A stretch of DNA of 36,981 bases, taken from assembly GCA_017859815.1 (NCBI GenBank), contig JAFMMM010000012.1, positions 1 to 36,981 on the forward strand, read 5' to 3'. Numbering within the stretch: the stretch's first letter is position 1; every line of letters begins with the position of its first letter. The notes under the pieces are model-generated. The model was not told where the DNA came from and did no database searches. It saw only the letters and a program-made list of their open reading frames with translations. The position numbers and the translations under genes were made by a program. This DNA comes from Planctomycetota bacterium (GTDB lineage Bacteria > Planctomycetota > Planctomycetia > Planctomycetales > Planctomycetaceae). Below are positions 14,959 to 22,244 of the stretch, one piece after another.

Positions 14959-15690
14959 GTAAAACCCTTCACACTCCCCAATCCAGCGAGTGTGATCGTA
15001 TCGCCTGCCTCCAGTTTGCCCGGCGACGGCATTTGCAGCTGAATGCTGCTCCCGCTCTGCCTCTTCTGTGTGCCGGGACTCAATGGCCGGTTGCTTGACT
15101 TTTCTATGATGTGCGACTAACGTTCTGCCGATGAGTCGGTGGGGAGGTCCGGGTTCGTTACGCGCGCTATCGTTCGCGTGAACCGCCGTGTCCTGATCGC
15201 CGCTCGAAAGTCGCGGCCTGTCGCGATCCGGCTGGTGATTCTGATGGCGAGTGAAGTCGTCCAGTTTTTCCTGCTCTCAAGTGATAGGCGTCGCCTGCTC
15301 GGTAGGTTTTGCTAGCGGATTTTTCGCATCAAAAATGTCCGGCAGGTGTGTCGCGGTGTTGAGAATGAATTCAGCATATTGCGAAACAGCGTCCGAAGGT
15401 CGGAGGTTGCTGGAGCAAAAAAAACAACTCGCTCCTGCGTTGGATGAAGGTCAGTTCGGCATTCCACCGAGTGGTTGCGGCGGCCATGTGTGACGTGGTG
15501 CTATGGGCGGCTTGTTTTCAGCTGTTGGTTTTCGTGCTTGAGGGACCTGAAATGGGCAAGATGTAGGTCTTTCTCCATTTCTCCGCTCGGATTCCTGTGG
15601 GTCCGCCTTGCTTCCTTTTGGGGGGAGTTTGGTGGTTCTTCGCCGGGGTCGTTGCGGTTTGGTTTCGGCAGAACTGCTCTGTCGGGTGCG
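14959..15690 (+). other. Long nusA leader / intergenic region without rimP
   Basis: About 790 bases separate the 73-residue protein from nusA. In many bacteria rimP lies here, but no frame encodes a RimP-like protein. Frames open at 15251-15493 and 15475-15762 have no domain-like composition. The region holds one promoter-like pair near 15096 and, at its end, a strong intrinsic terminator. It is best read as a long untranslated leader. Confidence 0.55.
15096..15124 (+). promoter_or_regulatory. Candidate sigma-70 promoter for the nusA operon
   Basis: TTGACT is followed after about 17 bases by TAACGT. The -35 matches five of six consensus bases, the -10 only three of six. If used, the transcript would have a leader of about 620 bases before nusA. 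Confidence 0.35.
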
Positions 15691-15721
15691 AAAAGTGGGA
15701 CTTGTTCCCGCTTTTTTTTTT
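15691..15721 (+). terminator. Intrinsic terminator/attenuator in nusA leader
   Basis: AAAAGTGGGA (15691-15700) pairs with TCCCGCTTTT (15706-15715) through ten pairs, one of them G-U, around a CTTGT loop. Ten consecutive T follow the C at 15711 (15712-15721), the first four inside the stem. This is a textbook Rho-independent terminator. It ends only 27 bases before the nusA ATG and points into nusA, so it must be read through for expression. This suggests attenuation, possibly by NusA itself. Confidence 0.85.
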
Positions 15722-15748: not shown

Positions 15749-17358
<1,610 letters not shown>

Positions 17359-17359
<1 letters not shown>

Positions 17360-17694: not shown

Positions 17695-20538
17695 TTGAAG
17701 ATTCGTATCTTTGCCCTCGCGAGAGATCTTGGGCTTGACAGTAAGGTTCTGATTGAGCTTTGCGAAGAGGCCGGCGTCAAGCTGCGCAATGCGCTTGCTA
17801 CGATTAGCGAGGAAGAGCGGGATCGCATTGTTGAGTACGTCCGCAACCGCGGTGAGAAGCCGGAACCGGTCGGGGAGAATGAGCCTGCTGCTCCGGTTCG
17901 TGAGAGCGCTGCCGCAAGCGGTCGAGTGCGAGTCATTGGATCGTCCGGCATTAGTCGTGATGGCGGGGAGGCTCTTGAAGAGTCTGTCGCAGCAGATGAA
18001 GCTGTAGTCGCCGATGTGCAGGAGGCACCTGAAGAGGTCATCGCCGATGTTGTGGCGGAGGCTGCTCCCTCGACAGATGATCCGGAAGCGGCCGCGGAGG
18101 TAGAAGCGGTCCCGGACGTGGAAGCGGCCACGGACGTGGAAGCGGCCCCGGACGTTGAAGTCTCGGCTGCCGAAGAGCCCGAGTCCACATCGGACGAGAG
18201 TGTTGCTGATCAGGTTGCAGAGTCGGCACCGACTGCCGTCGATACGGATCCTGGGGCGGCTCAGAAAAAGCCAGTGGTGACTGATAATGCGGCCCGATCG
18301 GTTTCACCGCTGCGGTCAAGAATGCAGTCCATGCGTGAGATGCGCCCGATTGGTTCGGTCAAAGAACGCGGCGAGAAGGCGTCGGCACCTGCTCCCGAAA
18401 AACCGGCCGGTGGACCGGTCAAGAGCAGCCGCGAACGGCAGGCTCCAAGGCCGCTCGTCGCTGCGGTTCCGGAGTATGTTCCGCCGGTGGCTAAGAAGCC
18501 GAAAGCCAAAGAAGAAAAAGCACAGAAGCCGGATATGTCGCTGTCGGAACTGGTCGACCGACGCAGCCCTCTGGCAGATCAGCTGAAAGCTCTGCGAAAG
18601 CATCGTGAGGAGCATGAAACGAGGGGCCCCGGACAGGGTGCAGGCGGTCGTCGATCGCGGCAGCCGGTTGCTCGTGGGTCGCTTCTGAAGGAACTGAGGG
18701 AATCTCGTGAGGCCGCTCGCCAGGCCAAGCGGCTCAAACGCCGCAAGAAAAATGTTCAGGCTGAGCTGAAGTCGGAAGCCCAGATTTCCTTTCCTGTAAC
18801 AGTGCGTGCCCTCTCCGAAGCAATTGGGCGTCCGGCAAAATCGATCATCAGTATTCTCTTCAAACAGGGAAAAATGGTGACGATTAACGATGAGCTGGGT
18901 GAAGAAGAGGCAATGGAGGTCTCACTCGAGCTTGGTGTCGACCTGACATTCAAGAAATCTCGCGACATTGAAGCCGAACTTTTGGCATCGCTGGATCACG
19001 ATGATGAGCCGGATCTGCTGGAGTCCAGGCCACCGATCATCACGATTCTCGGTCATGTTGACCACGGTAAGACGACCATGGTTGACCGTATTCGCAGCGC
19101 AAACGTTGCGGGCGGGGAAGCAGGCGGTATTACACAGCACATTGCGGCGTATCAGGTGGACTACGAGGGCAATGTTCTCACGTTTGTCGATACGCCTGGT
19201 CACGCGGCATTTGGTGAAATGCGATCACGCGGGGCGAATGTCACCGATATTGTGGTTCTGGTGGTCGCTGCCGACGACGGTGTGATGCCTCAGACGGTCG
19301 AGTGTATCAGCCATGCCCGCAACGCTGGCGTGCCGATTGTTGTGGCACTCAACAAGATCGACCTTCCGGGTGTTGATGAGCAAAAAGTGCTGCAACAACT
19401 TGCTCAGCATGAGATTTTGCCCGCTGAATGGGGCGGAGAGTATGAAGTTGTCCGCACGTCCGGAGAGACTGGGCAGGGTATTGAGCAACTCCTGGAAACC
19501 TTGATCCTCACAGCAGAGCTTCATGAGTTCAAAGCCAATCAAGACAGAGAAGCTGTTGGTGTTTGCCTGGAGGCATTTCGTGACGAGGGACGTGGTGCGA
19601 TAGCGTGGCTGATTGTCCGCAAGGGAACACTGCGTGTGGGTGACGTGCTGCTTTGTGGCAATACCTACGGTCGTATTCGGGCGATGTATAACGATCGCGA
19701 TGAGTTGATCGAGGAGGCGGGGCCGTCGACACCAATTCGCGTCGCGGGGTTGTCTGAGGTTCCCGGTGCCGGTGACCACTTCTTTGTCATGAAAGATATC
19801 GAAGACGCTCGGGAAACTGCAGAAAGTCGACTGCATGAAGGCCGGCGGGAGTCCCTGTCACTGCGGCAGGCACCGCGAACTCTGGAAGATATCCTGAATC
19901 AACCACGCGACGGCGAGGGAGTGCAGGATCTGCCGCTCATTCTGAAGGCTGACACGCCAGGTTCCATTGAAGCTCTGCGGGGTGAAATGGAGAAATTTGA
20001 GCATCCAGAGGTCCGGGTTCAGGTGATTCACTCCGGTATCGGCGGGGTGAACGAGAGTGACGTGTATCTGGCAGCGGCTTCCGGAGCGATTATTATCGCC
20101 TTCCATGTGGTGGCTGAAGAACGTGCAGAAGTTCTGGCGGACCGTGAAGGCGTGCAGATTCGACGCTACGACATCATTTATGAGGTCACAGATCACATTC
20201 GGCTGGCTCTGCAGGGATTGCTGCGTCCGGAACGTGTTGAGGTCACAACGGGACGAGCAATCGTCCTGCGAACATTCAGCATCAGTCGATTTGGCACGAT
20301 CGCCGGTTGCCGCGTTTTAAACGGTACGATTTCGCGCGACAGTCGCATTCACCTGATCCGCGATCAGAAGGTTCTGAACAACTACCGGATTGGATCGCTG
20401 AAACGCGAAAAAGAAGACGCAAAAGAAGTTCGGGAGGGGATGGAGTGTGGCATCCGGCTGGATGGCTTCAACGATATCAAGGAGGGGGACCTTCTTGAGG
20501 CGTTCCGTGTGGACGAGATCAAGAGGACTCTTGACTGA
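17695..20538 (+). CDS. infB: Translation initiation factor IF-2 (TTG start)
   Basis: A 947-residue IF-2, the GTPase that brings initiator tRNA to the small ribosomal subunit. The N-terminal IF2_N module is at the very start ([21 protein letters not shown]), followed by about 250 residues rich in Glu/Ala/Pro and then a Lys/Arg-rich linker. A second IF2_N-like segment precedes the G domain. The GTPase motifs are intact: GHVDHGKT at 453-460, GGITQHI from 477, DTPGH at 499-503 and NKID at 553-556. The C-terminal domains that bind fMet-tRNA follow to the end. The start is TTG because the IF2_N module begins exactly there and AAGGGG lies 11 bases upstream; no ATG exists nearby in frame. rbfA follows 74 bases downstream. 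Confidence 0.97.
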
Positions 20539-20612: not shown

Positions 20613-21047
20613 ATGTCGACTCGCCGAACTGCTCGTGTCGCATCCATGATCCGAGAGGTTGTGAGTTCTGCCATCCTGACGGAATTGCGAGATCCTCGGA
20701 TTCGCAATGTGACCGTCCTGGGGGCTGAAGTCAGTCCTGATCTGCGCTATGCCAGAGTGCGAGTGACGATCATGGGAGACGAGAAGACTGTGGCTCTGAC
20801 AATGCATGGCCTGAATTCTGCCACTGGGTATTTACGGTCGCGAATTGGAGTGTATATCAAGAGCCGACATGTCCCGGAATTAAAGTTCCTGCTTGACGAT
20901 GAGACCCGAAAGACGTCGGAAGTTGCCGCGATTCTGCGTGAGGTATTACCGGCGGAGGATATTTCGGAAGAGAGCACAGGTCCTGCTGAAACGGCGGAGC
21001 TCTTCCACGATGAAGTCCAGGACGGAGAGCCTTCGGATTCTCATTGA
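20613..21047 (+). CDS. rbfA: Ribosome-binding factor A
   Basis: A 144-residue RbfA, a KH-fold protein that helps mature the 30S subunit and the 16S rRNA 5' end. The family pattern is clear: RVASMIREVVSSAILTELRDPRI at the start, then VSPDLRYARVRVTIMG, RSRIGVYIKSRHVPELKFLLDD. The last 35 residues are an acidic extension (ILREVLPAEDISEE onwards). AGAGGAG lies 5 bases before the ATG, one of the strongest ribosome-binding sites in the window. It follows infB in the usual order; truB, often next, is absent and is replaced by the HhH/histone-like gene. Confidence 0.96.
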   Translation: MSTRRTARVASMIREVVSSAILTELRDPRIRNVTVLGAEVSPDLRYARVRVTIMGDEKTVALTMHGLNSATGYLRSRIGVYIKSRHVPELKFLLDDETRKTSEVAAILREVLPAEDISEESTGPAETAELFHDEVQDGEPSDSH

Positions 21048-21176: not shown

Positions 21177-22244
21177 ATGAGCGCGTCAAAGGCCCCAAAG
21201 GCATCTGACAAGACCAGGATCTGCAGCAAGCTCGTTAAAGAACTGCAGGCGCTGTACGGAAAAAAAACGCCGGAATTGTCTTCACCTGTCCTTGAGACCA
21301 TTCTGTTTGGAATCTGTCTTGAGGATGGTTCGTGGGAGGCTGCTGAATCCGGACTCGCCGCTCTCATGAAGGGCTATTTTGACCTGAACGAAATTCGTGT
21401 CAGCTCCATTTCTGAAGTAGAGCAGAGCCTTGCGCCCTTGCGTGATGCGGACTGGAAAGCCCTGCGAATCCGTGCGGTCCTGCGTTATGTGTACGAGAGC
21501 AATTATGAGTATCAGTTTGAGAAACTTCGCAAGCTGACTCAGGAACAGTTTGTCAGAGCCATTAAGAAGATTCCCGAACTCAGCCCGTTTGTGCGAGACT
21601 TCGCACTGCAACAGGTTTTGGGCAGTCATTTGATTTGTTTCGACAATTCCACTCTGGCCGCCGCGCGATGGCTGGGTCTGGTGCCGGAAAAGTCCAACAG
21701 TGATTCAGCATCAGAGTTTCTTAAGCCCGGTGTTCGGAAGGCTGACACCGTTGAATTCTCCTACCTGCTGCAGCGACTGGCTAGTGATCCCAGGTACGCA
21801 GAGCGTTTTGCAGAACCACTCGAAGAAGAGCTGTCGGTCTTTGATGTCTTTGATCGGCTGAAGGAGTTGAAGAACCCGTCAGCAAAGCCTGTCCGCAGGG
21901 CGGCTCAGACGGAGGCCGAAGCACAGCCAAAGGCCGGGAAAGCTTCTGCAAAAAAGGCCGCGGCAAAGAAGCCCGCTGCGAAAAAAGTGACCGCGAAGAA
22001 GCCTGCTGTGAAAAAAGCGGCCACAAAGAAGCCCGCGACAAAGAAGCCCGCCGTGAAGAAAGCGGCCGCGAAGAAGCCCGCCGTGAAGAAAGCGGCTGCG
22101 AAGAAGCCCGCTGTGAAGAAAGCGGCCGCAAAGAAGCCCGCTGTGAAAAAAGCGGCCGCAAAGAAGACCACTGCGAAAAAAGCGACCGCAAAGAAGACCG
22201 CTGCGAAAAAGCCGGCTGCGAAGAAACCTGCTCGCAAACGCTGA
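21177..22244 (+). CDS. Degenerate endonuclease-III-like (HhH-GPD) protein with histone-H1-like tail
   Basis: A 355-residue protein of two parts. Residues about 30-175 resemble the helical HhH-GPD fold of endonuclease [18 protein letters not shown] at the start, [13 protein letters not shown] (131-143) where EndoIII has its hairpin LPGVGRKTA, and [15 protein letters not shown] with Asp156 where EndoIII has its catalytic Asp. The hairpin glycines and catalytic Lys are missing and there is no C-terminal Cys cluster for an Fe-S centre, so glycosylase activity is unlikely. From about 250 to the end the chain is Lys/Ala/Pro only, built on a ten-residue repeat ([10 protein letters not shown]) like the C-terminus of histone H1, which binds DNA or RNA through charge. 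AAGGAA precedes the ATG. The position after rbfA suggests a link to nucleoid or ribosome biology. The fold is inferred by eye. Confidence 0.75.
21955..22240 (+). repeat. 30-bp coding tandem repeat (Lys/Ala/Pro tail)
   Basis: A 30-base unit, roughly AAGAAGCCCGCYGTGAARAAAGCGGCYGC, is repeated about four times nearly exactly with flanking degenerate copies. It encodes the H1-like tail of the gene above. All units stay in frame and there are no unique spacers, so it is not a CRISPR. Confidence 0.85.

Follow-up and report, generated by a model that had tools for sequence, protein, structure and literature searches.

A probable rimP-leader attenuator upstream of the planctomycete nusA-infB-rbfA operon, accompanied by a minimal start-stop reading frame

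The nusA-infB-rbfA operon in the window (the whole stretch of 36,981 nt analyzed here) is preceded by an intrinsic terminator that recurs, as a conserved sequence, just upstream of nusA in relatives. We consider it probable that this element is an attenuator of the operon, namely the planctomycete form of the rimP-leader, which would be subject to NusA feedback and would take a translation-linked input from a minimal upstream open reading frame (mini-ORF). The parts of this reading differ in strength: attenuation by the terminator is well supported by the sequence comparisons below, NusA feedback is plausible, and the contribution of translation status through the mini-ORF is inferred more weakly. 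A preliminary description of this DNA included the terminator but missed the promoter, the adjoining hairpin P1 and the start-stop mini-ORF. The elements are, from 5′ to 3′:

15095..15123, + strand: candidate sigma70-like promoter, TTGACT-N17-TAACGT (motif match)
15540..15545, + strand: Shine-Dalgarno-like (SD) sequence GAGGGA, 8 nt (from GAGG) before the mini-ORF ATG
15549..15581, + strand: hairpin H0 around the mini-ORF start, GAAATGG / CCATTTC with inner AAGAT / RTCTT
15552..15566, + strand: SD-led minimal upstream ORF, ATG GGC AAG ATG TAG (M-G-K-M-stop), inside H0
15665..15685, + strand: hairpin P1, just upstream of the terminator, arms TCGGCAGA / TCTGTCGG (covariation)
15691..15721, + strand: intrinsic terminator of the rimP-leader type, stem 15691-15700 / 15706-15715, T-run 15712-15721
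15749..17359, + strand: nusA, first gene downstream of the terminator (Pfam NusA_N, S1, KH_5)
17695..20538, + strand: infB, encoding IF2 (Pfam IF-2, GTP_EFTU)
20613..21047, + strand: rbfA (Pfam RBFA)

A conserved terminator between promoter and nusA

The terminator stem pairs A15691-A15700 with T15706-T15715 through 10 base pairs, one of them G-U, with arms AAAA GTGGGA and TCCCGC TTTT around a loop at 15701-15705. Its T-run consists of ten T and ends 27 nt before the nusA ATG (15749), confirming the coordinates and the 10-pair stem of the preliminary description; infB, rbfA and an HC2-like histone gene follow nusA in that order. A 12-kb search returned 22 terminator-like sites, compared with 11.3 +/- 3.6 in shuffled sequence, and the nusA-leader site came first in the list. 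The pattern AAAGYGGGA-N2-9-CCCRCTTTTT matches only once in the whole 5.6-Mb genome, so the site is not a product of chance. Separately, minus-strand terminator-like matches cluster at window positions 22020-22237, within the repetitive HC2-like histone gene, whose repeated codons probably give rise to them spuriously.

The preliminary description had made its proposal depend on conservation of the stem in relatives, and this is what we find: a same-strand site just upstream of nusA across the family and in many genera of Planctomycetia. We located nusA in 163 of 170 family genomes and read leaders from about 140 of these, selecting them by nusA and not by the hairpin pattern. A strict form, AAAGTGGGA-N-CCCRCTTTTT, occurs in 68 of the 170 genomes, with one copy each, only at nusA and on the same strand (perfect palindromes in this search match on the opposite strand too). 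The slightly looser GUGGG...CCCRC-T(6-10) is present in 56 of the 61 leaders sampled first, and most of the others carry variants. Class-wide, 91 of the 348 genomes sampled contain the hairpin. Of the 18 genomes beyond the family that have it, 17 carry it 20-330 nt upstream of nusA on the nusA strand. In general, GUGGGA...CCCRC-U(n) is found about once per genome, nearly always upstream of nusA, at a distance that ranges from 20 to 400 nt across relatives. Sampled members of five class families (f2, f5, f7, f9 and f11) have nusA and no such terminator, so the element is not essential to the operon.

We also asked how the stem itself varies. Across 42 aligned instances, which were partly chosen by pattern so that exact frequencies are biased, the five core stem pairs are invariant and hence show no covariation. 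The U of GUGGG is retained opposite A in 24 instances and opposite G in 16, with C-G replacing it in only 2. The 5′ arm is thus conserved as sequence and not as mere pairing; retention of the U regardless of its partner fits recognition by a protein.

Some lineages depart from this arrangement. Genus g52 (L079) has an intact nusA and apparently neither terminator nor mini-ORF. In leaders of genus g45 (L091, L238, L239), the terminator takes the variant form AAAAGTAGGGCATTCCCTGCTTTTTTT and lies a long way upstream of nusA; no SD-led mini-ORF was found in them. In family f3 (L158, L161, L162, L165), the terminator closely follows a conserved reading frame on the same strand, and neither the promoter motif nor the mini-ORF was found in the leaders. 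The f3 operon may be organised differently; since an upstream gene stops shortly ahead of the hairpin and the promoter motif was not found, the hairpin could also end that gene.

Immediately upstream of the terminator, 44 of 64 leaders contain a hairpin of at least 7 pairs ending beside it, against 10.9 expected. This hairpin, P1, is variable in sequence. In genera g1 and g6 combined, its positions are 97.3% paired while 5 of 8 pairs have changed on both sides, and its covariation score was reached by none of 500 shuffles. P1 is absent from the single-sequence minimum free energy fold of the window itself.

Within-genus alignments place a strictly conserved promoter motif, CTTGACA-N17-TATCGT or similar, upstream of the terminator. 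A 17-nt spacer separates the two hexamers in 36 of 40 genera, and the -10 element is often TATCGT, with TAATTT in genus g10. The predicted start precedes the terminator by a median of 248 nt and nusA by 376 nt. The candidate in the window sits farther upstream than in most relatives, with a predicted start at ~15130 and a leader of ~620 nt. Of 130 family leaders, 128 have a sigma70-like motif ahead of the terminator. The preliminary description had raised the alternative that a promoter between the terminator and nusA carries transcription of the gene; a sigma70-like motif is found there in 0 of the 130, and the gap between T-run and ATG is at most 40 nt in 46 leaders of 16 genera, leaving little room for a second promoter. 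Transcription of nusA must therefore pass the terminator, and the order of leader elements is promoter motif, mini-ORF, P1, terminator and nusA.

This layout bears on two simpler explanations. The hairpin could be a plain constitutive terminator that insulates nusA or ends the upstream gene and has no regulatory role, as its strong stem and perfect T-tract would allow and as the upstream gene stopping just before it in f3 would suggest. We regard this as highly improbable, since the conserved promoter motif of the operon lies upstream of the hairpin and none lies downstream, and since the stem sequence is unique in its genome and conserved across phyla, unlike ordinary terminators. The gene upstream of the leader, moreover, is often divergent and differs in kind between family genomes (by our reading of the sequences, a TPR protein, an aldo/keto reductase and a P-type ATPase appear to be among these neighbours; in the window it is an FHA protein gene). 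Because of this the terminator is not part of the upstream gene, and its assignment as that gene's terminator is ruled out for the family.

Alternatively, the region from promoter to terminator could be an independent small RNA gene of ~250 nt, with nusA expressed as a by-product of readthrough. Such a gene would account for the promoter motif, the terminator and the structure of the leader (P1, plus H0 in g1 and g6). We give this very little weight too: the stretches that separate the elements show no conservation from genus to genus, and with no promoter motif left for nusA between terminator and ATG, the leader elements must also control nusA.

Kinship with the rimP-leader

The rimP-leader was described by Naville and Gautheret (2010) as an operon-specific terminator with GGGc...gCCC arms and a T-run before rimP-nusA-infB (PMC2965389). 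It lies 4-130 nt from the first gene, has no visible antiterminator, and was suggested to be regulated by NusA; its gammaproteobacterial form also ends in a GGG...CCC terminator (PMC2965389). In E. coli, we find ACTGGGCTTTAGGCCCTTTTTTT just before rimP. The planctomycete hairpin shares with the rimP-leader the GGG...CCC arms and T-run, a stem conserved in sequence, position before the first gene and specificity for this operon, together with the lack of a visible antiterminator and NusA as the regulator suggested in the literature (PMC2965389). It differs in standing directly on nusA, in an arm extended to GUGGGA / CCCRC, in the adjoining covarying hairpin P1 and, in one family, in the minimal SD-led ORF ~117 nt upstream.

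The two are connected by a search through 84,980 genomes for a pattern drawn from the planctomycete hairpin, with downstream genes identified by tblastn. It returned 30 loci, of which 24 lie just upstream of rimP (13) or directly upstream of nusA (11). The rimP loci are mostly from Acidobacteriota, whereas the nusA loci are mostly from Planctomycetota, with one Chloroflexi bin. One further locus, L285, is placed with the rimP loci because its flanking sequence matches theirs.

The position on nusA follows from gene content. We found rimP (PF02576) in 0 of 46 good genomes of the class, with 10 of 14 control genomes positive; the single match in the class is a fragment at a contig start in a 79%-complete bin. 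Planctomycetia thus lack rimP, nusA is the first gene, and the leader stands on nusA. The hairpin before nusA is therefore the rimP-leader as it occurs where rimP is missing, and it is not new in kind. As a side observation, rimP is missing from essentially all 59 Planctomycetia genomes searched, G000 among them.

These results change how the preliminary description is to be read. Its attenuator is a real, conserved terminator placed between promoter and nusA, but not a new one. The position does differ from that in E. coli, as had been pointed out, although the absence of rimP, which leaves nusA first, is the sole explanation and removes it as a novelty. Nor does the suggestion of a new arrangement, should it prove conserved, survive: the rimP-leader has been described since 2010, and autoregulation through the B. 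subtilis NusA leader is reported in a 2025 review (PMC12288461). The attenuator model itself gains support from these parallels.

Covariance models gave no further relatives. The Rfam family RF01770 (rimP), a model of 102 positions for the leader of the same operon, has no match in the window and none above its 47-bit gathering cut-off in 21 genomes. No other Rfam family reaches its gathering score in the window, and permissive matches were to small RNA models at chance level. The leader of this operon in E. coli contains the tRNA gene metY; we found no tRNA in the window, leader included.

A minimal start-stop reading frame at near-fixed distance

Upstream of P1, the window contains the four-codon frame listed above. 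Its pattern, ATG/GTG-GRC-RAG-ATN-TAG, is present in 22 of 22 leaders of g1 and g6, and AAGGA or GAGGGA is retained in most of the window's genus. At the same place, other genera have an SD followed by ATG-TAG, ATG-TGA or ATG-TAA, or by ATG and a few codons. In genus g51, the stop alternates between TGA and TAG while ATG-stop is retained.

To count such frames, we searched for an SD-led ATG followed by 0-5 codons and a stop between -165 and -85 relative to the terminator, taking expectations from dinucleotide shuffles. Mini-ORFs are found in 39 of 50 genera, which share ancestry and are not independent, compared with 2.1 expected; the bare ATG-stop occurs in 24 against 0.44 expected. In the stretches on either side, the frequency is at expectation. 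Allowing up to 6 codons, 41 of 50 genera have an SD-led ORF. Among leaders collected after the idea of a mini-ORF had been stated, some of them from genera already sampled, about 26 of 39 carry one within the distance and a few more have one nearby. Codons, stops, SD and flanks all differ between genera, making mere inheritance of unconstrained sequence unlikely. At most a few of 43 leaders from sister families have a comparable ORF, and none was seen in Acidobacteriota. We also rejected a longer leader peptide that finishes in the mini-ORF, as most have no longer in-frame SD-led start.

The distance from mini-ORF to terminator has a median of 117 nt (sd 15), while that to nusA is variable. 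This pairing of a mini-ORF with the attenuator at near-fixed distance in the family was previously unnoticed; our literature search found no nusA-leader mini-ORF and no planctomycete transcript-end data. Leader minigenes or mini-ORFs at axe-txe, LEE1 and LEE4 are likewise SD-led and have very few codons; they act in cis (PMC8708949), and the family mini-ORF may also be translated and do so. Those are single cases of at least 2 codons, whereas the family mini-ORF is often a bare ATG-stop, spans ~40 genera and is spaced to the terminator.

In g1 and g6, the mini-ORF start lies within H0, which is found at one copy per genome and only in the nusA leader; a role as a genome-wide regulon element was therefore ruled out. 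H0 is near-invariant in these genera, leaving no covariation signal, and was not found in others. Its strong conservation, limited to these two genera, is notable at a distance of ~110 nt from the terminator. An enclosing hairpin of this kind, along with the AUGUAG common to many instances, raises the alternative that the ATG-stop is untranslated and forms part of a protein-bound RNA motif (AUGURR). We think this unlikely, as all three stops are used (TAG in 15 genera, TAA in 14, TGA in 12), the sense codons vary in number and identity, and an SD is kept at normal spacing.

Possible modes of control

In the mechanism we propose, RNA polymerase would start at the upstream promoter and make a leader of ~250-600 nt before meeting the intrinsic terminator just before nusA, where the fraction reading through would set expression of the operon. 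A protein, most likely NusA, would bind the GUGGG arm, giving more termination when NusA is plentiful. Initiation and release of a ribosome at the mini-ORF could supply a second, translation-linked input to an operon that encodes IF2 and the 30S factor RbfA.

Feedback by NusA has a precedent: according to the review, B. subtilis NusA controls its own synthesis by stimulating termination in the leader (PMC12288461). Both leaders place an intrinsic terminator before the operon encoding NusA; NusA dependence is reported for that of B. subtilis (PMC12288461) and is a prediction for the planctomycete one. The presence of a rimP-leader form without rimP weighs against RimP as its regulator. The signal read would thus not be RimP, which points to NusA on a question open since 2010. 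One feature counts against NusA control: a long, unbroken T-tract such as this suggests a terminator that may not need NusA.

Two results leave a translation-controlled attenuator of the trp type without support. The 5′ arm is about as complementary to the upstream 250 nt as shuffled sequence would be (mean z 0.04), revealing no antiterminator. In partition-function folding, the mean predicted probability of terminator formation is 0.83 without and 0.84 with a ribosome footprint on the mini-ORF, leaving the fold unchanged. By the time polymerase reaches the T-run, a ribosome at the mini-ORF would trail it by more than 100 nt, making direct contact unlikely at that point.

How the mini-ORF might act is a more tentative matter. 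One possibility, which we put forward with reserve, is that it serves as an initiation-only sensor that adjusts readthrough of a NusA-controlled terminator and so balances NusA against IF2 and RbfA. Because the mini-ORF needs no elongation, its occupancy would report the capacity for initiation and release (IF2, 30S supply, release factors). If so, the attenuator would be translation-coupled and yet lack a coding leader peptide. In some 40 natural versions, the family offers a translation signal that is almost free of codons and is tied to a terminator. These make testable whether bacteria sense translation initiation itself, apart from any influence of codons or peptide, to control the operon of NusA and IF2.

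A serious rival to this sensor, and likewise a possibility to be held loosely, is that the mini-ORF influences how stable the RNA is or how ribosomes load: a held ribosome would protect the leader while NusA alone sets termination. Mini-ORFs and SD sites that protect transcripts and affect downstream genes are known, and such a role has been proposed for enterobacterial leaders (PMC8708949). The lack of a folding link between mini-ORF and terminator also favors protection. Against it stands the spacing: the mini-ORF keeps nearly the same distance from the terminator (median 117 nt, sd 15) while its distance from nusA varies, which ties it to the terminator rather than to nusA.
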